NCBI GenBank assembly: GCA_021799485.1
Contig: JAJZAK010000001.1
Location: 98,458-162,457 of the forward strand
Direction: 5' to 3'
Source of the DNA: a bacterium
GTDB taxonomy: Bacteria; Elusimicrobiota; Elusimicrobia; UBA1565; UBA9628
Length of the DNA: 64,000 nucleotides
This document shows, one piece after another, positions 37,232 to 50,236 of this stretch (positions within the stretch are counted from its first letter, which is position 1; each line of letters opens with the position of its first letter). The position numbers were made by a program, and so were the translations under genes. The notes under the pieces were generated by a model. It was not told where the DNA came from. It made no database searches and saw nothing but the letters and a program-made list of their open reading frames with translations.

Positions 37232-38317
37232 TTACGATGAGCGATTGAGAAACCGCCGGACCAGTTCCCTCGCTTCCCTGGGGCCCGGCGCTCCTTCCGG
37301 GTGGAACTGAAGTCCCGCGGCATGGCGGTGCTTGAAGCCTTCCAAGGTCCCGTCGTTGAGGCTCCGATGGGTCTCCCTCCAACCTGAGGGAAGGCTCCCG
37401 GCCTTGAGCGCGAATCCGTGGTTTTGCGTCGTAATGAGGACCTGGCCCGTCTGAAGGTCCTTGACGGGATGGTTGGCGCCGTGATGGCCGAACTTAAGCT
37501 TGAAGCTCGACGCTCCCGCCGCAAGACCTAAAAGCTGGTATCCGAGGCAGATCCCGAGCACGGGGACGCCCGAACGCATCAACTCCCGCGTCGTCTCGAT
37601 CTCGGGCCGCATGGCCGCGGGGTCCCCGGGGCCGCTTGAAAGGACAACCGCCTCGGGCCCCTCTTTGAGAAGCGTCGCAGCTGAAGTGCGCGCGGGGAAG
37701 GCCTTGACCGAGACGCCGGACTCGATCAACGTATCGATCAAGGCTCGTTTCGAGCCAAGATCCAAAAGAGAGACCCGGCGCCTCGAACGGCCGAAAACGC
37801 GGGGTTCGCGGACGCTGACAAGACGCGACAACGATCGCCCCTCCATGGCGGGGACGCGCCTGGCGAGGGCCACCAGGGCCTTGGAGCTCGCCTTTTCGGT
37901 TGTCAGGACGCCGCGCAGAGCGCCCGCCCCTCGGATCATGAGGGCAAGGTCCCGCGTGGGAAGTCCCGAGGCGGCCACGACCCCCCCTTCTTGAAGGAAT
38001 CGTCGCAGGCTCCGCCCATCCATCCCGGGACTGTCCGGAGAAGTCTTGTCGGCCACCACATATCCCGCCGCCGCGATCCGATCCCACTGCCGGTCCTCGA
38101 GTTGGACGCCGTGGTTGCCGATATGGGGATTGGTCGCGACGACGATCTGCCCCCAATAAGACGGATCGGTGAGGGTCTCGACGTACCCCGTCATCGAAGT
38201 CGTAAAAACCACCTCTCCTTGCGCCGTTCCGCCGGCCCCCGCCGAGAGCCCCTCGTAGACCGATCCGTTCTCGAGGGCGAGCCAGGCTTTAGGCGGCACG
38301 GTCGACTTTCGGCTCAT
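37232..38317 (-). CDS. carA: Carbamoyl-phosphate synthase small subunit (glutaminase)
   Basis: 361 residues. Seen: the CPSase small N-terminal domain (AWLALENGSVYEG; VVFTTSMTGYVETLTDPSY), and a class I glutamine amidotransferase with nucleophile Cys in GICLGYQLLG, TTQNHGFAL and the catalytic GLQFHPEGAPGP. It supplies ammonia to carB. It starts inside the last 29 bases of mtnA and converges on carB with 44 bases between the stops, so the two subunits are on separate transcripts. Confidence 0.96.
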   Translation of the reverse strand: MSRKSTVPPKAWLALENGSVYEGLSAGAGGTAQGEVVFTTSMTGYVETLTDPSYWGQIVVATNPHIGNHGVQLEDRQWDRIAAAGYVVADKTSPDSPGMDGRSLRRFLQEGGVVAASGLPTRDLALMIRGAGALRGVLTTEKASSKALVALARRVPAMEGRSLSRLVSVREPRVFGRSRRRVSLLDLGSKRALIDTLIESGVSVKAFPARTSAATLLKEGPEAVVLSSGPGDPAAMRPEIETTRELMRSGVPVLGICLGYQLLGLAAGASSFKLKFGHHGANHPVKDLQTGQVLITTQNHGFALKAGSLPSGWRETHRSLNDGTLEGFKHRHAAGLQFHPEGAPGPREARELVRRFLNRSS

Positions 38318-39344
38318 GGCGGACCCGGGAATTCGGAGAAACCCGGGAGGGAAGTCGGCCCTTGATGAGATCCGCGCGCTTGACGACCCCGACGTCGAGA
38401 ATCATGGCCTCGACAAGATCGGCGGGGGTGACATCGAAAGCGGGATTATGAACGCGGGCGCGCTTAGGCCCCCAGTCACGCCGCACCTCCTCGGGGGAGC
38501 GTTCCTCGATCGGGATGCCGTCGCCCGTCGAGATCGAAAGGTCCACCGTCGTCACCGGCGCCGCGCAGTAAAACGGCACGCCGTGATGGCGCGCGAGAAC
38601 GGCCAAAGGATAGGTGCCGATCTTGTTCGCGAAGTCGCCGTTGCGGGCGATGCGGTCCGCGCCGACGAAGATCCCGCGGACCTTGCCGCGGCGCATGAGG
38701 CTTCCGGCCATGTTGTCGCAGACGATCGTATAAGGGATTCCCAAGCTCTCGAGCTCCCAGGCCGTGAGCCTCGCCCCCTGAAGAAGCGGGCGCGTCTCGT
38801 CCACGTAAACGTGGATGCGCTTGCCGGACTCGTGGGCCGCCCGGATGACCCCGACCGCCGTGCCGATGCCGGCGGTCGCCAGGCCTCCGGCGTTGCAGTG
38901 CGTCAGCACCGACTCGCCGTCCTTGATGAATCGGGCTCCGTGCTCGGCGATCCTTCGGCACAACGCGACATCCTCGTCAAAGATGCGCTCCGCTTCGGCC
39001 GCGGCCTTTCCGGCTAGGTCCTTGCCTCCTCGCGCCTCCTGCCTAGCAGGCTGGCAGGCGGCAAGCATTCGGTCGACCGCAGCCATGAGATTGACCGCCG
39101 TCGGACGCGCCCGGCGCAGGAGCTTCGCGGAGGCCCTGAATTCCTCCCAGTCCGCGCCCTCCTCGGCATGTCGGGCAAGGGCGGCGGCAGCCGCGACACC
39201 GATCAAGGGGGCCCCCCGCACCTTGAGATCGAGGATGTACTTGGCCATTTTGCTTGGCGAGTCGGCGCGCAGCCACTCGACTTTATTGGGAAGCAGGGTC
39301 TGGTCCAGGACCCAGAGACGGCCCTTCTCGCAGATAAGGCCCAT
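38289..39344 (-). CDS. mtnA: Methylthioribose-1-phosphate isomerase (MtnA)
   Basis: 351 residues. Seen: LKVRGAPLIGVAAAAALA, the catalytic Cys in LTHCNAGGLATAGIGTA, VDETRPLLQGARLTAWEL, and the catalytic Asp in VGADRIARNGDFANKIGTY. Isomerises methylthioribose-1-phosphate (or 5-deoxyribose-1-phosphate) to the ribulose form. ATG 39344 matches the family length; a GTG at 39362 is possible. The class II aldolase gene is 25 bases upstream. Some genomes annotate this family as eIF-2B-like; the MtnA motifs are clear here. Confidence 0.94.
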   Translation of the reverse strand: MGLICEKGRLWVLDQTLLPNKVEWLRADSPSKMAKYILDLKVRGAPLIGVAAAAALARHAEEGADWEEFRASAKLLRRARPTAVNLMAAVDRMLAACQPARQEARGGKDLAGKAAAEAERIFDEDVALCRRIAEHGARFIKDGESVLTHCNAGGLATAGIGTAVGVIRAAHESGKRIHVYVDETRPLLQGARLTAWELESLGIPYTIVCDNMAGSLMRRGKVRGIFVGADRIARNGDFANKIGTYPLAVLARHHGVPFYCAAPVTTVDLSISTGDGIPIEERSPEEVRRDWGPKRARVHNPAFDVTPADLVEAMILDVGVVKRADLIKGRLPSRVSPNSRVRHEPKVDRAA

Positions 39345-39369
39345 CGAGGCGAGAGCCTTCACGGGGCGC

Positions 39370-40026
39370 TTACAAAATCCTCTCGCCGAGCTTCCGGCGC
39401 ATGCCCTGCAGGGCCGCGAGCTCCGCCCCCGGAACCGGGGCCAAGCCCCCGAAGCCTTGGGCAAGGCGCAGGATCCAGGCCGCATGCTCGACGCGTTCGA
39501 TGCCGTTGTAGGCTTCTTGGAGCGTCTCCCCCCAGCAGAGGGCCCCGTGACGGGCGAGGATCATGGCCCGGTGCTTGCAAAGAAAGGGCCGCAGATTTTG
39601 CGCCATCGCCTCGGTCGAGGGCCGCGCGTAAGGAACGATGGGGATGCGCCCCACGGCCAAAATGACCTCCGGCAGGCAGTCGGAGGGGAGTTCCTTTAAA
39701 TAAGGGCGCGCGACGGACCAAGCGATGGCCGCCGGCGGATGGGCATGCACGACGGCTTTCGCCTGCGGACAGCTGTTGTAGACCTCGAGATGGATGAGGC
39801 GCTCGCTCGAGGGCTTTCCCTTGAGCACGCGGCCGTCGGGCGCGATCATGGCGATGTCCTCGGGCTTGAGGAAGGCCTTGTTGATGCCGGTCGGGGTCAT
39901 CACGATAAGATCGTCGGATAACCGGACGCTCACGTTGCCGTCCGCCGAGGCGATCATATTCTTGTCGTTCAAGCGGCGGCAGACCTGGATGATCTCATCG
40001 ACGACGGCGGCTTCGTCCATCGCCAC
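39370..40026 (-). CDS. Class II aldolase / MtnB-like protein
   Basis: 218 residues. Seen: zinc ligands HAHPP (H94, H96) and ARHG (H160), the acidic E75 in SSERLIHLEVY, and the ASADGNVSVRL N-terminal signature. The family includes fuculose-1-phosphate aldolase and methylthioribulose-1-phosphate dehydratase. Pairing with mtnA suggests action on the MtnA product: either dehydration in methionine salvage or aldol cleavage in the DHAP shunt for 5'-deoxyadenosine or methylthioadenosine by-products. The GTG at 40026 overlaps the PP2C stop (TAGTG) and has GGAGG eight bases before it. Confidence 0.88.
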   Translation of the reverse strand: MAMDEAAVVDEIIQVCRRLNDKNMIASADGNVSVRLSDDLIVMTPTGINKAFLKPEDIAMIAPDGRVLKGKPSSERLIHLEVYNSCPQAKAVVHAHPPAAIAWSVARPYLKELPSDCLPEVILAVGRIPIVPYARPSTEAMAQNLRPFLCKHRAMILARHGALCWGETLQEAYNGIERVEHAAWILRLAQGFGGLAPVPGAELAALQGMRRKLGERIL

Positions 40027-40799
40027 TATAGCTGCCTCCCTCCCGCCATCCTGGCGACGATGACGGTGATATTGTCGGCTCCGCCCGCGGCCTTCGCCCG
40101 CTCGACGAGACGCCTCGCGGCCTCGCCGGCCGCGAGGCGGTAGATACCGAGAATTTTCTCGATTTCCGCGTCAGGCGCCATGTTGGTAAGCCCATCGGTC
40201 GCCAGGAGAAGGACGTCCCCCGGTTCGAGCGCCCGGCCGGCGACATCCACCGAAACGTCCGCTTGGAGGCCGACCGCTCTTGTCAAAGCGCTCGACACAT
40301 CGGGTCTTCGGGCTTCCTCAGGGCTCAAGAGCCCTCGACGCACCTGATCTTCGGCCCAACTGTGGTCCCGGGTCAGCCTTTCCAAACGGCCCTCCCGGCA
40401 AAGATAGAGGCGGCTATCGCCCACATGGGCGTAAGCGATGTCCTCGGCGCCGACCCATGCCGCGACCACGGTTGTTCCCATGCCGGCGTCTTTGGCCGAG
40501 GAGCGGGCCCGGTCGTAAACCGCCCGATTCGCCGCTTTGATCCATGCCTCAAGGAGATTCCTCCTCTCGGGAAGGCCCGGCGCCTGGGCCGCAGCCGATC
40601 GCCGCTGGGACGCCAAATCCATGAAGGTCCGAACCGCGAGAGAGCTTGCGATCTCCCCGGAGTTATGCCCGCCCAGGCCGTCCGCGACGATGAAAAGACC
40701 TTCCTCGGCAGCCATACTCCATTGGTCCTCGTTGTTGGTCCGGACGAGGCCGCGGTCGCTCAAGCCCGCGGCGGACAAGACAGGATAAGATCGGATCAT
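40026..40799 (-). CDS. PP2C-family serine/threonine protein phosphatase
   Basis: 257 residues. All metal-ligand motifs are intact: TNNEDQW (E24, D25), FIVADGLGGH (D40), HVGDSRLYL, LLATDGLT (D202) and GGADNIT (D242). It removes phosphate from Ser/Thr residues in the cytosol. It starts in a TGATG overlap with the CHASE2 pseudokinase gene upstream, so the two are translationally coupled. An upstream in-frame extension of 49 codons only re-reads the end of that gene. Confidence 0.95.
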   Translation of the reverse strand: MIRSYPVLSAAGLSDRGLVRTNNEDQWSMAAEEGLFIVADGLGGHNSGEIASSLAVRTFMDLASQRRSAAAQAPGLPERRNLLEAWIKAANRAVYDRARSSAKDAGMGTTVVAAWVGAEDIAYAHVGDSRLYLCREGRLERLTRDHSWAEDQVRRGLLSPEEARRPDVSSALTRAVGLQADVSVDVAGRALEPGDVLLLATDGLTNMAPDAEIEKILGIYRLAAGEAARRLVERAKAAGGADNITVIVARMAGGRQL

Positions 40800-43132
40800 C
40801 AAACCGTCGACTCCGCCGGAGCCGCCTGCGGCAGCGAGCCCAGAGCCGCCAAGCAGCTTCTCAGAGACGCGGCCATTTCCGCAGGCCCCGCATAGCGCTC
40901 GGAGGGAGACTTGGAAAGGGCGCGCATGACGATCTCCTGGGCGCATGGAGGCGATCCAGGATTGAGCTCGGAAAGAGGCACCAGGGAATCATTGGCTATC
41001 CTGTAGACAAGCTCTCCCAGGCCGTCCTGGGGCCTCAGGAATGGGTGCTTGCCGGTCAATAACTCATAGAGGAGGACGCCAATGGAGAAAACGGAGGACG
41101 CCGCATCGAGAGGCTTGCCCAAGACGGCTTCGGGGCTCAAGTAGGCAATTTCTTCCTTTTTCGGCTCGCCGTCCGCCGCGCCGGTTCCCGCCGCCGCGGG
41201 AAGCCCGCCGCCCCAATAATTGAGCAGTTTGGGGCTGTTTCCCGGCCCCATGAAGATGGAGGCGGGATGGACGGCGAAACAGGGAACCCCCGCCTCAAAA
41301 GCGGCCGCCACGGCCTCTCCGATCCCCGCCGCAGCCCGAAGGGTTCCCGCGACGTCCCAAAGAGGGCCCGCCCGAAGGCTGGAGGCGAGAAGCGAGGCCG
41401 TGGACATCTCCGCCGCGAGATAGCCGGCCTTTCCCGCCTCGCCGAAATCAAAAACGTGAAGGAGATTCGGGTGGTCGAGAGACACGAGAGCGGGGCCCTC
41501 GGCGAGAAAGGCCTCGGCGTCGTCCAGGGAGGCGAAGCGGCGAGAGATGATCAAGGCCTCGGCCCCCGTGCGGGAATCCCGCCCCACCCAAGCGGACTGG
41601 CCGCGCCCCAGGATCAGGCCCGGGACATCCCGGAGCTTCTCGTACGGGATGCTTTCGCCGGAGGGCTTCTTTTCGGCGTGCCCATTAAGCGCCGCCGTGC
41701 CGTGGTGGGGCGCGGCCTCCGGGGCGACCCGCGGGAGTTCCATAGCCGGCGTCGGCGATGGGACCGCGGCCGGCGCCATTTCCCGCTTGAGTCCCCGCCT
41801 CCCTAAAAACGCGAACCACGCGACGCGCGCGAAGCCGACCACGAAAGCCGAGGCGAAAATCGCCGACGCAGGCCCGGCCACCTCCATCCAAAAGCCATGC
41901 GCCATGAAGTAGAGCCCCAACACGACCACGCCGCAGGCGAGAAGCCAGGCGATGGCCGCGGCCCAGACCGCCCCCATGAAGGGAAGGACGCCGGCCGCGA
42001 ACAAAGCGGCGAACGCCCAGAGCCCGGCCTCCCACCTCTCTCGCCGGGGCGCTGGAAGAATGAAATTCTTGTCGAGGATATTCTGAAGTGCGTTCGCCGC
42101 CAGCTCGAGCTCCGTCATGGAGCGATCGACGGCGGTCCTATAAAAAGGCTTGGCCTCGGGAGACGACGGCCCCACAAGGACGATCTTATTGTTAAGGGCG
42201 GAAGCGGGAGTTTTGCCGGAAAGAACCTCCCAAGCCGGATATGGAAGAAACGTCCTCGACGGACCATAAAAGTCGATCAGGACGCTTCCCTTGGCCGACA
42301 AGGGGATCTCAAATCCACCGCCGGAAACGCCCCGGCCTGAAACGACGCTCAGCCGATCCAAGAGGAGACCCTGTGACAAGGCGGCGAGCGCCAGCGGAAA
42401 GGACGGAAGCGCCTGATCCGCGAAGCCGAACACCGGAACTTGGCGCCTTACAACCCCGTCCGAATCCCTGGGGAAGCTTAGGACTCCGATTCCGGCGGCG
42501 GCCTGGGAGAAAAGCGGCAGAGGAAGAGTCAAGGAGGCGGCGCGGGGAAGACCGTTCGCGGAAGCGGGTCGGGCAAGCGCCCATGGGAAGGCGCTGGAAA
42601 CCGCCGGAGGGCTAGAGGCCTCGAAGTCGCCAACTCGCGCCGCCAGCAGAACATGTCCCGACTCCTTAATCGCCTGGGCCAGATCCTGGTCCGCATCGAG
42701 CTTCAGGGCCGCCTGGGAAAAAAGCTCGGCGAGACGCCCTCGCCGGTCGATCACCCTGCGGCCGCGCTTAAGCCGCGCGTAAGCCTGAGAAAGATCCTTA
42801 ATCTCGGCAAGCGCCCGCGTATCGGAGGGCGCTGAAAGTTCCAGCAGCAACCCGATCGCCGCCGGCTTCTCAATCGAGATCGCCCGGATGAGATCCGCCC
42901 ATCGCGAGCGGGACCAAGGCCAGGGGCCCAGGCGCGCCTGCGACGCCGCGTCGACCGCGACCAGGGCGATCCTGGGGGATGTCTCCTGGCTCTCGCAGAG
43001 CCTCAGCCCCCAGTCGTAGAGCTTGGCTTCGATCGCCGCAGCCGGCGCCATCGGGGAGCGAAAGGCGGAGAACCATCCCGCGACGATGAGAAGTCCTAGC
43101 GCGCTTTCCACGAATCTCATTTTCTTTCGCAT
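40799..43132 (-). CDS. CHASE2-domain membrane protein with a degenerate Ser/Thr kinase domain (pseudokinase)
   Basis: 777 residues. Seen: an N-terminal membrane helix (about 8-24), an extracytoplasmic CHASE2 sensor (about 36-350; YDWGLRLCESQ, LVAVDAASQARLGPWPW, NNKIVLVGPSSPEAKPF), three membrane helices (about 365-445), and a cytoplasmic kinase-like domain (about 500-770). Kinase landmarks are recognisable but dead: glycine loop LGRGQSAW present; the VAIK Lys is Ser530 (ALIISRR); HRD is FAVHPAS (H622, no Asp); DFG is NYW (638-640); the helix-F Asp is Ser680; SPE replaces APE. GVLLYELLTGKHPF confirms the family. ATG 43132 has AGGAG 11 bases upstream; an earlier ATG lies inside the cspA terminator. 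Confidence 0.92.
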   Translation of the reverse strand: MRKKMRFVESALGLLIVAGWFSAFRSPMAPAAAIEAKLYDWGLRLCESQETSPRIALVAVDAASQARLGPWPWSRSRWADLIRAISIEKPAAIGLLLELSAPSDTRALAEIKDLSQAYARLKRGRRVIDRRGRLAELFSQAALKLDADQDLAQAIKESGHVLLAARVGDFEASSPPAVSSAFPWALARPASANGLPRAASLTLPLPLFSQAAAGIGVLSFPRDSDGVVRRQVPVFGFADQALPSFPLALAALSQGLLLDRLSVVSGRGVSGGGFEIPLSAKGSVLIDFYGPSRTFLPYPAWEVLSGKTPASALNNKIVLVGPSSPEAKPFYRTAVDRSMTELELAANALQNILDKNFILPAPRRERWEAGLWAFAALFAAGVLPFMGAVWAAAIAWLLACGVVVLGLYFMAHGFWMEVAGPASAIFASAFVVGFARVAWFAFLGRRGLKREMAPAAVPSPTPAMELPRVAPEAAPHHGTAALNGHAEKKPSGESIPYEKLRDVPGLILGRGQSAWVGRDSRTGAEALIISRRFASLDDAEAFLAEGPALVSLDHPNLLHVFDFGEAGKAGYLAAEMSTASLLASSLRAGPLWDVAGTLRAAAGIGEAVAAAFEAGVPCFAVHPASIFMGPGNSPKLLNYWGGGLPAAAGTGAADGEPKKEEIAYLSPEAVLGKPLDAASSVFSIGVLLYELLTGKHPFLRPQDGLGELVYRIANDSLVPLSELNPGSPPCAQEIVMRALSKSPSERYAGPAEMAASLRSCLAALGSLPQAAPAESTV

Positions 43133-43157: not shown

Positions 43158-43198
43158 ATAAAAAACAAGGGAGCCCGCCCGCAGAGCGGGCGGGCTCC
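43158..43198 (-). terminator. Rho-independent terminator of the cold-shock gene
   Basis: A perfect 13-bp stem (43170-43182 with 43186-43198) and a 3-base loop, followed on the minus strand by TTGTTTTTTATTATC. It isolates cspA from the downstream CHASE2 gene. Confidence 0.93.
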
Positions 43199-43424: not shown

Positions 43425-43687
43425 CTGACTTACTTGCACCTCTCTACCTTGGGATTGCCTTGCCTTGGGGCCCGGCAGTGCCTCCTTCCGGAAGCGTTAA
43501 ACTGATTGTAACACATCCTGGCACCATTCGCCATCCCATTTCCTTTTCCACGAAGGGCCGGAGGCTTGATCCGAGACGTTTTCGAGAGAATAAGGCCTTT
43601 TCTTCAGTCGAGACACTTGCTACAATTCGGAAGCGCCAGGAGGCGCCGTCGTCTAATACCAATAGCCCGCAAGGAGAATCCCACGAC

Positions 43688-43945
43688 ATGGCCAGGAAAC
43701 CGAACGCCGCGTTCATGAAGAAGATGTCGATCAGCCCCGCCCTCGAGAAAGTCATCGGCAAGGGTCCCTACCCGCGCACCGAGGTCGTCAAGAAGCTCTG
43801 GGCCTACATCCGCAAGCACAAATTGCAGGATACGAAGAACAAGCGCATGATCCACGCCGACGAGAACCTCAAGGCTGTTTTCAGCGGCAAGAACTCCGTC
43901 AACATGTTCGAGATGACGAAGCTCGTCAGCAAGCACCTGAACTAA
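43688..43945 (+). CDS. SWIB/MDM2-domain protein
   Basis: 85 residues, almost entirely a SWIB domain: PNAAFMKKMSISPALEKVIG, RTEVVKKLWAYIRKHKLQD, IHADENLKAVFSGKNSVNMFEMTKLVSKHL. In bacteria such stand-alone domains are known in Chlamydiae and several environmental lineages, where a role in DNA topology or nucleoid structure has been suggested; no function is established for this type. AAGGAG lies 11 bases upstream. TACAAT at 43621-43626 may be a -10 element. A terminator follows directly. Confidence 0.92.
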   Translation: MARKPNAAFMKKMSISPALEKVIGKGPYPRTEVVKKLWAYIRKHKLQDTKNKRMIHADENLKAVFSGKNSVNMFEMTKLVSKHLN

Positions 43946-46317: not shown

Positions 46318-47556
46318 CTATTTGATGAGGACGTCCCCGCGGCCCAAGACTTCGATGACTTCCGGCCTCAAAAAGCGCTCGGGGAGACCCTTCCCTTCCT
46401 TAATTAGTTGCCTGATACGGGTCTGGCTCACCGACTCATGATGTTCTTGGGCATGCGGACACGTCTTATCCGAAGCCATGAAGCCGCATATTCCGCAGTA
46501 AAACAGCTCCCTATAGCGCAGCGCCCGAATGCCGACATCAAACTCGTCGAAGATTTTATGGCCGGCATAGGGATCGTAGAAGCTTCCCAGCCCGGCTTGG
46601 TCGCGCCCGACGATGTAGTGCGTGGCGCCGTAATTCTTGCGCACGATCGCGTAAAAAAGCGCCGCCTTCGGGCCCGCGTAGCGCATCGTGATGGAAAGCG
46701 GCGCCAGCACGACCCGTTCCCGCGGGTAATACCCCTCGATAACGCGGCGGTAAGACTCCATGATAATCTCGGGCTTATAGTCCCCCGCCTTGAGCCGTCC
46801 GATCACCGGATGGATGAAAAGACCGTCGATCTCATCGCGTTCCAGCGCCGCTTTCTGCATGTACTCGTGCGCCAAATGAGGAGGATTCCGGCATTGATAA
46901 GCGGCGATGTTTTTCCAGCCCTTGCTTTCAAATAACGCTCGCGTCTCCCGCGGGGAAAGTTCGGCCGCCCCTGACGGCGCCGCAAGTCTCCGGATCAGCC
47001 GGATTTTTCCCGCGAGAGCGACGCCCCCGTAATGAAGGCCTATGTCGCGGACATTGGGATGGCTTTCATCCGTCGTCCCGTAGACGCCCCGCGCGAATTC
47101 CTCCTTGGAGTACTCGTATTTTTCAACCGCTTCGATCAGCGCGAAGACGCCGCCCCCGCCGTCGATCAATGCGACCTCCTGTCCCGCGCGGATCGAAGCG
47201 GCCTCCTGGCGCGAGAGAGCGAGAATAACCGGGATCGGCCACGGCAGTCCTCCAGGGAGCCTCCCCCGTTTTACGACGGATTCAAAGGTTCGCGAGTCCA
47301 TGAAGCCTTCCAGCGGGGTGTAGGCCCCCAGGGCGATCTTTTCGGCGTCATAGACGAAGTCGTCGAAGAGCCGCAAGGATGGCAGACGCGCCGCGCGCGC
47401 CAAGGCCCGCCGCGACTCTTCGGTGGACATGACGCCGTCCACGAGCGCTCCGCCGTAGGGCGTCCCGAGCGGCCCCGCCTCCTTCCCGCCGCTCTCAGAA
47501 GCCCAAGCGAAGGCAGGGTTTTTTGAAGACTTTCCACTCGCCGCTGGCTTTGTCAT
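46318..47556 (-). CDS. sat: Sulfate adenylyltransferase (ATP sulfurylase, dissimilatory type)
   Basis: 412 residues; interconverts sulfate plus ATP with adenylylsulfate plus pyrophosphate. Seen: PYGGALVD start of the PUA-like domain, AAYQCRNPPHLAHEYMQ (QxRNxxHxxH), VGRDQAGLGSFYDPYA (usual GRDHAG has Gln here), and the zinc site CGICGFMASDKTCPH. This is the homo-oligomeric Sat of sulfate reducers and sulfur oxidisers. It overlaps aprA by 62 bases if the ATG 47556 is used; AAGGAGG at about 47480 lies inside the frame but no standard start follows, so the true start is uncertain. Same operon as aprBA. Confidence 0.94.
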   Translation of the reverse strand: MTKPAASGKSSKNPAFAWASESGGKEAGPLGTPYGGALVDGVMSTEESRRALARAARLPSLRLFDDFVYDAEKIALGAYTPLEGFMDSRTFESVVKRGRLPGGLPWPIPVILALSRQEAASIRAGQEVALIDGGGGVFALIEAVEKYEYSKEEFARGVYGTTDESHPNVRDIGLHYGGVALAGKIRLIRRLAAPSGAAELSPRETRALFESKGWKNIAAYQCRNPPHLAHEYMQKAALERDEIDGLFIHPVIGRLKAGDYKPEIIMESYRRVIEGYYPRERVVLAPLSITMRYAGPKAALFYAIVRKNYGATHYIVGRDQAGLGSFYDPYAGHKIFDEFDVGIRALRYRELFYCGICGFMASDKTCPHAQEHHESVSQTRIRQLIKEGKGLPERFLRPEVIEVLGRGDVLIK

Positions 47557-49321
47557 AAACGGAATTCACGAACACGTCCCAATTCTTGTCGTCAAGCTTC
47601 GGGAAATCGGAGCGGTAACCGTAGCCGGGCCAGCGCGTCTCCTGGCGGAAAAGGGTGTGCCTCAGCAATGTCTCCGCCGTGAGCACGCGATGACGGAGCT
47701 CCCACGCCCTCTGGAGCTGATGCAGGTCCTCGGCCGCGACCCAAGACAAGTCCTCCTTGAGCATCGAGAGGAGCTCGATTCCCCGCCGCAGGAGCGTCGC
47801 GTTCGTCGTGTACATCGAGCCCCATCCTCCCGCGTATTCATCCATGATCTTCTCGAGCCGCACGACCCCCTGAAGGGGATCGATATAGTCGGGAGAGACG
47901 CTGCCTCCCGTGATGAGGCCCCTGGCGAGACGGAAGTTTTCGATGGGCTTATAGATCTCCTCGCGCAAATCCTCCAACGCCTTGTCGGACGCGGCGGGGC
48001 GGTCGCTGGGATGATCTTCGATGAAAGCGACCGCGGCCTTTCCCGCGAGCCGGCCCTCCGTGAAAGAACCCGAGGAGAACTTATGCGCCGATCCCCCGAC
48101 CGTGTCCCCGGCGCCGAAAAGGCCGCGGATCGTCGTCATCCGGTTGTATCCCCAGAAGTAGTCGGCGGGGGAGACATCCTGGGGCCCGCTCGCCCAGGCC
48201 CCCGCGCAGGCGGCGTGGGATCCCATGACATAAGGCTCCGAGGTCTGCAGTTCCGAGGCCCTTTTGGATGGGTTGATGTTCTGCGCGGCCCAAACGAGGG
48301 TCTGGCTCACCGTCATGTCCAGGAAGTCCTCATAGCCGATCGCCTCCTTCTCGGGAGTGTCAAGGATCTCCTCGGTATGCATGTAGATGGGAGCGTTTCC
48401 GGCGCGGATCTCCCGAAGCATGGCGTCGTTGCGCAAACAGGAGGGAAGGGGCTTGGCGTCCGCGTATCGTCCATAAAGTTTTCTCTGCTCGTCGCGATAT
48501 TTGAGCTCGTACTCCTCGCCGTAGGCGTTCGTCGCCCGCGCCTTCAACGTAAGAAACCAGGCGCCCACGGGGCCGTAGCCGTCCTTGAAGCGCGCGACCA
48601 CAAGCCTATTTTCCATCTGCGTCATTTCGGCGCCCGCGTCGATGAGAAGACCATAAGCGGAGCCGGAGCTCCATGGCGCATACCAGGTGCGTCCCGCTCC
48701 CTCCCCAACCGATCTCGGCCGGAAAATGCGCGAGGCGCCTCCCGCCGAGACGATGACGGCCTTCGCCCTGAAGGCCCAGCAGGCCCCGTCCCGCACGTCG
48801 AACCCGACGGCGCCGGCGACCCGCCCCGGATCCCCGGAGTCGGTCAAAAGATGCGTCACCATGATCCGGTTGTAGACCTCGCTCGCGGACTTCGCCGCAG
48901 CTTCCGCCACGATGGGCTTGTAGGATTCCCCGTGGATAAGAACCTGCCACCGCCCCTCCCGCGCGTAGCCCCCGGTCCTGGGGTCGCGCTTGAAGGGAAG
49001 CCCCCAGCTTTCAAAAAGGCGGACGGAGGAGTCGACGTGCCTTGCCATGTCGAACTCGAGGTCCTCCCGGACAAGTCCCATCATGTCGTTTCTCGCGTAG
49101 CGCACGAAATCCTCGGGGGCGTTCTCGCCCTCCCGGACCCCCAGGTAGCAGTTGATCGCCGAGAGCCCCATCGCGACGGCGCCGCTCCTCTCGATGCTCG
49201 CCTTTTCGACGAGGACGATCTTGAGGCCTCTCCCCCAATGGCGAGCCTCGTAGGCCGCGCCGCATCCGGCCATCCCGCCGCCGAGGATCAAGACGTCGCT
49301 GTCTATGACTTTCGCTTCCAT
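47495..49321 (-). CDS. aprA: Adenylylsulfate reductase alpha subunit
   Basis: 608 residues, flavoprotein of the fumarate reductase/succinate dehydrogenase fold. Seen: the FAD motif VLILGGGMAGCGAAYEA, ERSGAVAMGLSAINCYLG, DMMGLVREDL, GAGRTWYAPWSSGSAYGL and the WPGYGYRSDFPKLDD C-terminal region, diagnostic of AprA. Reduces adenylylsulfate to sulfite and AMP, or runs in reverse in sulfur oxidisers. It overlaps the aprB end by 19 bases and sat by up to 62, so the order aprB-aprA-sat is one transcript. No dsrAB, qmo or hdr genes are in the window, so direction is unknown. Confidence 0.96.
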   Translation of the reverse strand: MEAKVIDSDVLILGGGMAGCGAAYEARHWGRGLKIVLVEKASIERSGAVAMGLSAINCYLGVREGENAPEDFVRYARNDMMGLVREDLEFDMARHVDSSVRLFESWGLPFKRDPRTGGYAREGRWQVLIHGESYKPIVAEAAAKSASEVYNRIMVTHLLTDSGDPGRVAGAVGFDVRDGACWAFRAKAVIVSAGGASRIFRPRSVGEGAGRTWYAPWSSGSAYGLLIDAGAEMTQMENRLVVARFKDGYGPVGAWFLTLKARATNAYGEEYELKYRDEQRKLYGRYADAKPLPSCLRNDAMLREIRAGNAPIYMHTEEILDTPEKEAIGYEDFLDMTVSQTLVWAAQNINPSKRASELQTSEPYVMGSHAACAGAWASGPQDVSPADYFWGYNRMTTIRGLFGAGDTVGGSAHKFSSGSFTEGRLAGKAAVAFIEDHPSDRPAASDKALEDLREEIYKPIENFRLARGLITGGSVSPDYIDPLQGVVRLEKIMDEYAGGWGSMYTTNATLLRRGIELLSMLKEDLSWVAAEDLHQLQRAWELRHRVLTAETLLRHTLFRQETRWPGYGYRSDFPKLDDKNWDVFVNSVYDKASGEWKVFKKPCLRLGF

Positions 49322-49752
49322 CGTTCTCGTTGAAGAAGATTTTCTTCGCCCTCATTGGAGAGGCGCTGAGAGCGTCGATCCGCGTCCTCCGGCGGCTTTA
49401 ATTCCAGCGGGGATTTGATCGAGCCCCACGGCGTGGTCCTGATCGGGAAGGCGAATTCCTTTCTCGTTCCGTCGCGATAAAGAATCGTCCATTCAATGAC
49501 GTTGCGTTCCTTATCTCGAATCACGCTCAACGAGGATCCCAAGGGGGCGAAATCCGCGTAGCCCCGAACGCCGATCGCCCGCGGACGGCATTCCTTGACG
49601 CAGGAACAGCATTCCCAGCAGTAATTGGGCTCGGAATTGAAAGCTTTTTTATCCGGAGAGCCGCCGGGCAAAAAGCGCATGATATCCGATGGACAAATAT
49701 CGACGCACTTGCCGCAACCCTCGCATTTCGATGCGTAAACAAAAGTGGGCAT
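49303..49752 (-). CDS. aprB: Adenylylsulfate reductase beta subunit (two [4Fe-4S] ferredoxin)
   Basis: 149 residues starting MPTFVYASKCEGCGKC, as in AprB. Cluster Cys: C10, C13, C16, C20 and C45, C48, C51, C55 (with an extra C49). A beta-rich segment follows (WTILYRDGTRKEFAFPIRTT, WGSIKSPLE) that wraps AprA, then a charged tail. Transfers electrons to the AprA flavin. CGGAG lies eight bases before the ATG. A much longer in-frame upstream extension covers the intergenic space and the response regulator antisense and is not used. Confidence 0.96.
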   Translation of the reverse strand: MPTFVYASKCEGCGKCVDICPSDIMRFLPGGSPDKKAFNSEPNYCWECCSCVKECRPRAIGVRGYADFAPLGSSLSVIRDKERNVIEWTILYRDGTRKEFAFPIRTTPWGSIKSPLELKPPEDADRRSQRLSNEGEENLLQRERWKRKS

Positions 49753-49855
49753 GGAGAAGACTCCGGGAATCGCTTCCTTCTCTCCCGTTGCGAAACTGCA
49801 ACATTTAGACCGTATCAGCGCGGCGTCCGGGGATGAAAATGCCATAATTGAAGGG

Positions 49856-50236
49856 ATGGCGCGCATCCTCATCGTTGACGACGACTTCGAAATCGTCTCC
49901 CTCCTCGACGAGATTCTCACGAAAGACGGCCACCAAGTGGACTCGGCCTTCGAGGCCGTCGAGGGGATGGAGAAAGCTCGCAGCCTCAAGCCCGACCTCG
50001 TCATCCTCGACTTCCACATGCCGGGGGCCAACGGGGCCCATCTCTTCGAGTCGATGCGGCGCAACCAGTCCGGGGCGCCCACTCCGGTCCTCTTCATCAG
50101 CGGCGAAGCCTCTCCGGAGGACATCCTCAACCAAATCGCGGACCCCGAACACTCTCGCTTTCTCCCCAAGCCCCTCAAACTCGAGGAATTCCGCGCGGCG
50201 GTGAAGGAACTCCTCGACCCGCATCACAAAAAGTGA
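49856..50236 (+). CDS. Single-domain response regulator (CheY-like receiver)
   Basis: 126 residues. Seen: ILIVDDD (D8-D10 acidic pocket), phosphoacceptor Asp52 in VILDFHMPG, Ser82 in LFISGEAS, Lys105 in LPKPLK. No output domain, so it acts by protein binding or as a phosphorelay link. No histidine kinase is adjacent. CATAAT lies seven bases before the ATG (49843-49848), possibly a leaderless start; GAAGGG directly before the ATG is too close for a normal ribosome-binding site. gpmA starts two bases after the stop. Confidence 0.92.

Follow-up and report, generated by a model that had tools for sequence, protein, structure and literature searches.

A CHASE2 receptor pseudokinase translationally coupled to the only PP2C phosphatase of an Elusimicrobiota genome

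The stretch of Elusimicrobiota DNA considered here (64,000 nucleotides, referred to below as the window; all coordinates are window positions unless a locus is named) encodes a membrane receptor in which a CHASE2 sensor is joined to a kinase-like domain without catalytic residues, and which is translationally coupled to an intact Ser/Thr phosphatase of the PP2C type. An earlier note made from the DNA alone had proposed that a dead kinase controls a phosphatase in this signalling pair. The receptor is indeed a real pseudokinase, kept by selection and coupled to an intact PP2C, but it does not represent a distinct dead-kinase system by origin. Judged from its relatives, the pair is a lineage-specific conversion of a common Elusimicrobiota CHASE2-kinase/PP2C pair. 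On balance, the receptor appears to have become a non-catalytic sensor or scaffold that acts through the master phosphatase of the cell instead of adding phosphate. More tentatively, one Elusimicrobiota family may repeatedly have converted sensor kinases into non-catalytic receptors that govern a single PP2C, in one case by discarding the kinase domain, so that external signals would reach the phosphoproteome solely through controlled dephosphorylation.

The receptor and its phosphatase

The window belongs to a metagenome assembly (G000) of 2.31 Mb in 61 contigs that is 90% complete. The receptor gene (P0001; 40799..43132, minus strand, as is the rest of the unit) encodes 777 amino acids from an ATG at 43132 preceded by an AAGGAG Shine-Dalgarno sequence, and a homologue is present in 46 of 57 close relatives. 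Residues 27-380 (41993..43054) form the CHASE2 sensor domain (Pfam PF05226, E 4e-45; 154.7 bits against a cut-off of 26.3), and the hydrophobic segments that follow at residues ~381-445 (41798..41992) are taken, by inspection of the sequence, as transmembrane helices. A Pro/Ala-rich linker (residues 446-498; 41639..41797), in which identity within the genus is lowest, leads into the pseudokinase domain at residues 499-770 (40823..41638), as delimited by Pfam, alignment, and AlphaFold2. This domain matches the Pfam Pkinase family (PF00069) with 39.2 bits (cut-off 31.7), and the AlphaFold2 model of residues 490-769 has a kinase fold (predicted local distance difference test score 87.6, predicted template modelling score 0.88). 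The nearest solved structures are PknB and PknA of Mycobacterium tuberculosis, the best being PknB 2fum (E 1.6e-18), and the sole poorly modelled inner stretch, domain residues 152-165, lies in the former activation loop. Open reading frames, Pfam matches, and the predicted structure thus bear out the placement of both genes and the retained kinase fold described in the earlier note.

The claim that every catalytic residue has been lost also holds. The register was taken from a family alignment that includes many active relatives with normal motifs, and no Lys, HRD Asp, or DFG Asp of the active orthologues finds a counterpart in the window receptor. Two motifs had been placed slightly out of register. 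The position of the β3 VAIK Lys is Ile529 rather than Ser530, the next residue, and neither is a Lys. Similarly, HRD is absent, but the HPA said to replace it (residues 622-624) corresponds to the KPA of HRDxKPAN, with Ser625 at the catalytic Asn, and the HRD site itself is occupied, ungapped, by Cys618-Phe619-Ala620. Correcting the register leaves the conclusion of a dead kinase unchanged. The replacement of DFG by Asn638-Tyr639-Trp640 and of the helix-F Asp by Ser680 was correctly identified, and the alignment further indicates a shortened Gly loop. Elements of the structural core are retained, namely Glu545 of αC, the HP of the αC-β4 loop, the APE motif as SPE (Glu668), and its partner Arg746. 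The domain has both the sequence and the fold of a Hanks-type kinase (PF00069) but none of its VAIK Lys, HRD Asp, Asn, and DFG Asp; with its kinase fold, its vanished catalytic motifs, and its retention by selection, the domain is by its residues a pseudokinase. Across the dead domains of this and related receptors, residues conserved in the family have disappeared most from the catalytic and activation loops and least from the region from helix F to αH, a pattern that fits a docking role for the C-lobe, the core of which is also needed by the fold. A second probable pseudokinase is encoded elsewhere in the same genome (locus L005, 400-2250, plus strand, contig C7); it keeps the Lys, has HGS for HRD and DFK for DFG, and besides the kinase domain it has an apparent response-regulator receiver and ankyrin-like repeats.

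The receptor stop codon TGA (40801-40799) and the phosphatase start codon ATG (40799-40797) have one base in common, giving the TGATG overlap (40797..40801) that had been recognized from the sequence. The PP2C (P0002; 40026..40799, 257 aa) is Stp1/PstP-like. It matches PP2C_2 (E 1e-15), scores 229 bits against the Stp1/PstP model NF033484, one bit short of the cut-off of 230, and counts Stp1 and PstP among its solved relatives. As claimed, its metal ligands are complete, the motifs NED, DGLGGH, DGLTN, and GGADN all being intact, and these motifs are likewise kept in every lineage that has lost the kinase. In the 13 family genomes searched (G000 and 12 others), PP2C_2 has exactly one match per genome, always beside the receptor, as opposed to 3-14 matches to Pkinase in each; a search of the window genome with the SpoIIE model gave no further PP2C. 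Five other kinases are encoded in the window genome, four of them with intact motifs. A single PP2C among several kinases must therefore serve other kinases, as does mycobacterial PstP, a lone phosphatase set against many kinases and regulated by PknA and PknB (PMC3052367, PMC6554272).

Maintenance and origin of the pseudokinase

All residue losses are common to the three genomes of genus g1 (G000, G001, and G002), in which receptor identity to G000 is 87% and 64%. The PP2C and an aldolase gene follow the receptor in both other genomes, as do mtnA and carA in G002, and a contig scan yielded a single congeneric contig (L036), which matches G001. No stop or frameshift interrupts the pseudokinase in any of the three, and the block LNYWGGGLPAAA...GEPKK..IAYLSPEAV.GKPL is nearly invariant despite the 64-87% overall identity. 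Ratios of nonsynonymous to synonymous substitution (dN/dS, Nei-Gojobori) within the genus are 0.17-0.25 for the pseudokinase, 0.23-0.26 for CHASE2, and 0.16-0.18 for PP2C; dS is near 1 in comparisons with G002, which makes those values rough, and the G000-G001 comparison (dS 0.3) gives 0.17. The pseudokinase is under purifying selection in the genus and is not decaying. Since the losses are shared by three genomes they are not sequencing errors, and together with dN/dS this rules out a pseudogene. A frameshift, misassembly, or chimaeric contig disguising a normal active kinase is of negligible probability: the window comes from a single metagenome-assembled genome and the sibling genomes are of the same kind, but the same losses recur in all three with continuous frames, dN/dS well below 1, and conserved gene order.

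Beyond the genus, a CHASE2-kinase homologue (E <= 1e-20) was found in 137 of 341 Elusimicrobiota genomes, and 129 of these loci were read. VAIK, HRD, and DFG are all retained in 115 of them, five are ended by contig edges or otherwise lack the kinase region, and a PP2C adjoins the receptor in nearly all loci of sufficient length. Close homologues that stand beside a PP2C and retain the catalytic residues, which the earlier note had named as evidence against its view, are thus the rule. A common ancient dead-kinase/PP2C system is ruled out by these active relatives. Together, the intact motifs and the nearly constant PP2C neighbor show the ancestral state, as read from these sequences, to be an active CHASE2 receptor kinase translationally coupled to PP2C, from which the state in the window is derived. 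Throughout the phylum, 77 of 107 junctions measured have a 4- or 1-base overlap between receptor and PP2C, among them those of seven of the eight lost-kinase genomes, the other (G021) having a 2-base gap instead. An apparent natural receptor-PP2C fusion in G230 (L085) was rejected: a frameshift within the Pro-rich tail creates the single frame, and the true junction is an ordinary overlap. In family f14 (L109-L173) a second kinase gene lies directly before the pair throughout, making a kinase-receptor kinase-phosphatase triplet.

Nearly all kinase loss lies within the family of the window. Among the 129 loci, motifs are lost in seven genomes, the three of genus g1 together with G003, G006, G018, and G021. 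G003 keeps the Lys, the Asp of HGD, and the Asn, with DFG changed to GFG; G006 keeps the Lys and HLD, with GLG for DFG. Both are predicted to be inactive from the loss of DFG. In G018 the Lys is Glu, HRD is HGD, and DFG is GFG, and in G021 the Lys is Arg, HRD is HRH, and DFG is kept. The most extreme case is G004 (L100, 5450-7725, plus strand), in which a CHASE2 membrane protein has no kinase domain at all and runs through an ATGA overlap into PP2C. On a tree built from CHASE2 and PP2C, the approximately unbiased test rejects one origin of all losses (p = 2e-7), and at least two losses must therefore have occurred; the long branches of the affected rows leave their exact placement unsure. One loss for G018 and G021 (g11) is compatible with the tree (p 0.45), and genera g1, g2, g3, and g5, taken as one loss, are already set apart by a branch (support 57/29), so that the losses number at least two and at most about five or six. 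Outside the family, G177 (L146, 4083 onward) has NFG for DFG and HRDIRPPN with its other motifs intact, and its PP2C starts 148 bases past the receptor stop; this CHASE2 kinase is possibly at an early stage of inactivation.

A proposed phosphatase-directed role for the receptor

In the mechanism proposed here, the CHASE2 domain would sense an extracytoplasmic signal, and the C-lobe of the pseudokinase (helix F, αG, and αH) would either dock the co-translated PP2C at the membrane or act on it allosterically. The receptor could thereby place or switch the only PP2C of the cell, and the signal would set how far the substrates of the other four motif-intact kinases are dephosphorylated. The arrangement may be likened to a PknB/PstP pair in which the sensor now signals through the phosphatase arm only. 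Repeated kinase loss, the deletion in G004 with its overlap kept, and the presence of a sole PP2C provide indirect support for a receptor working through the phosphatase, and from these we infer a biochemical link between the two proteins. The unit may have survived the death of its own kinase because it is the address of the only PP2C of the cell.

Several observations weigh against this interpretation. G004 does without any kinase domain, which need not then be the contact for PP2C. Translational coupling is older than kinase loss and by itself is no evidence of a new role. Both PP2C and CHASE2 are more diverged in kinase-loss lineages, which could mean weaker constraint on the whole pair: mean PP2C identity to family f2 is 45% where the kinase is lost versus 51%, in a comparison of rows that are themselves related, so that its Mann-Whitney p is not to be read literally, and the active genus g6 shows a similar divergence to the kinase-loss lineages. 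This greater divergence is compatible with a new role as well as with weaker constraint.

Other explanations can be envisaged for the domain, the first two given here being the chief ones. The pseudokinase could regulate one or more other Hanks kinases, as a hetero-dimer or decoy substrate, with the adjacent PP2C merely a general phosphatase in its ancestral place. The four motif-intact kinases offer possible targets, and active kinases are a frequent target of known pseudokinases, according to a review (PMC8141879); this is nonetheless unlikely, given that CHASE2 and PP2C stay coupled in G004 without a kinase domain and that no further kinase gene adjoins the pair within the window. It is slightly less likely still that the domain is a relic, vanishing under falling constraint and leaving the CHASE2-membrane part or the PP2C as all that counts. 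Complete absence of the domain from G004, long branches in the kinase-loss lineages, and the several patterns of loss would suit a relic, but the low dN/dS, open frames, and near-invariant block within the genus speak against one. Adoption of another ATP-dependent reaction, like the AMPylation of SelO or the glutamylation of SidJ, has precedents (PMC12599244) and might account for the strong conservation of the unusual activation-loop block. The activity of SidJ needs repurposed ATP- and metal-binding residues (PMC12599244), however, and the window domain has a shortened Gly loop and none of the β3 Lys, HRD Asp, Asn, and DFG Asp, so that the chance of such a reaction is very slight.

In ordinary kinase/PP2C pairs, effects of the sensor kinase on its partner phosphatase other than phosphorylation are hard to see. 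Here the kinase reaction has been naturally deleted in at least two lineages with the sensor, the coupling, and the phosphatase kept, making a non-catalytic link directly testable. Few other bacterial pseudokinases can be assigned so concrete a candidate for their partner and output.

Gene neighborhood and known systems

Upstream, the unit is bordered by a terminator-like hairpin (43170..43198, minus strand) of 13 pairs with a T-rich tail, located 3' of a cold-shock gene. Downstream, the same-strand run continues with a class II aldolase family gene (39370..40026), which overlaps PP2C by one base in an order seen only in the genus, then with mtnA (38289..39485), encoding methylthioribose-1-phosphate isomerase, and ends with carA (37232..38317), encoding the small subunit of carbamoyl-phosphate synthase. 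A stand-alone SWIB/MDM2 domain protein is encoded divergently from the cold-shock gene (43676-43945, plus strand). Further away, sat, an aprA-like flavoprotein gene, and aprB (adenosine 5'-phosphosulfate reductase beta) are adjacent (46318-50178, minus strand); dsrA was not found in this 90% complete assembly.

The literature on CHASE2 with PP2C, or on bacterial pseudokinases with PP2C, coverage of which included few subscription journals, gave no such pair, in agreement with the earlier note. Bacterial Ser/Thr pseudokinase families include ActPs1-3 (among them MviN/MurJ), CP1, DYD, DLHK, GLW, and EssB/YukC (PMC12599244). By description, these resemble the window domain in their kinase fold, some having lost all three motifs and some being part of membrane proteins that act as scaffolds; a text search of the same review found no mention of CHASE2, PP2C, or Elusimicrobiota. 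The active CHASE2-kinase/PP2C pairs of other Elusimicrobiota share orthologous domains, gene order, and the stop/start overlap with the window pair, but have intact VAIK, HRD, and DFG, often longer Pro-rich tails after the kinase, and no aldolase-mtnA-carA run behind. In SiaA, the sensor and PP2C are found in a single chain. Sensory input onto a PP2C output is likewise a feature of SiaABCD (PMC9239204), in which, however, the PP2C and a stas-type kinase act together on a STAS protein, whereas the window has a separate pseudokinase as sensor and an Stp1/PstP-like PP2C. The closest parallel is PknB/PstP (Stk1/Stp1) of the Actinobacteria and Firmicutes, in which a receptor Ser/Thr kinase is linked to PP2C and which provides the nearest solved structures of both domains. 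PstP, too, is often the one PP2C in a cell with many kinases (PMC6554272, PMC3052367), just as the window receptor gene adjoins a sole PP2C. The window receptor differs in having CHASE2 instead of a PASTA sensor, Pfam showing only CHASE2 and no PASTA repeats there, and its kinase, devoid of catalytic residues, should not phosphorylate PP2C as PknA and PknB do PstP. Each part is rated as being of a known kind, and the whole as a variant of a PknB/PstP-like kinase-phosphatase pair.

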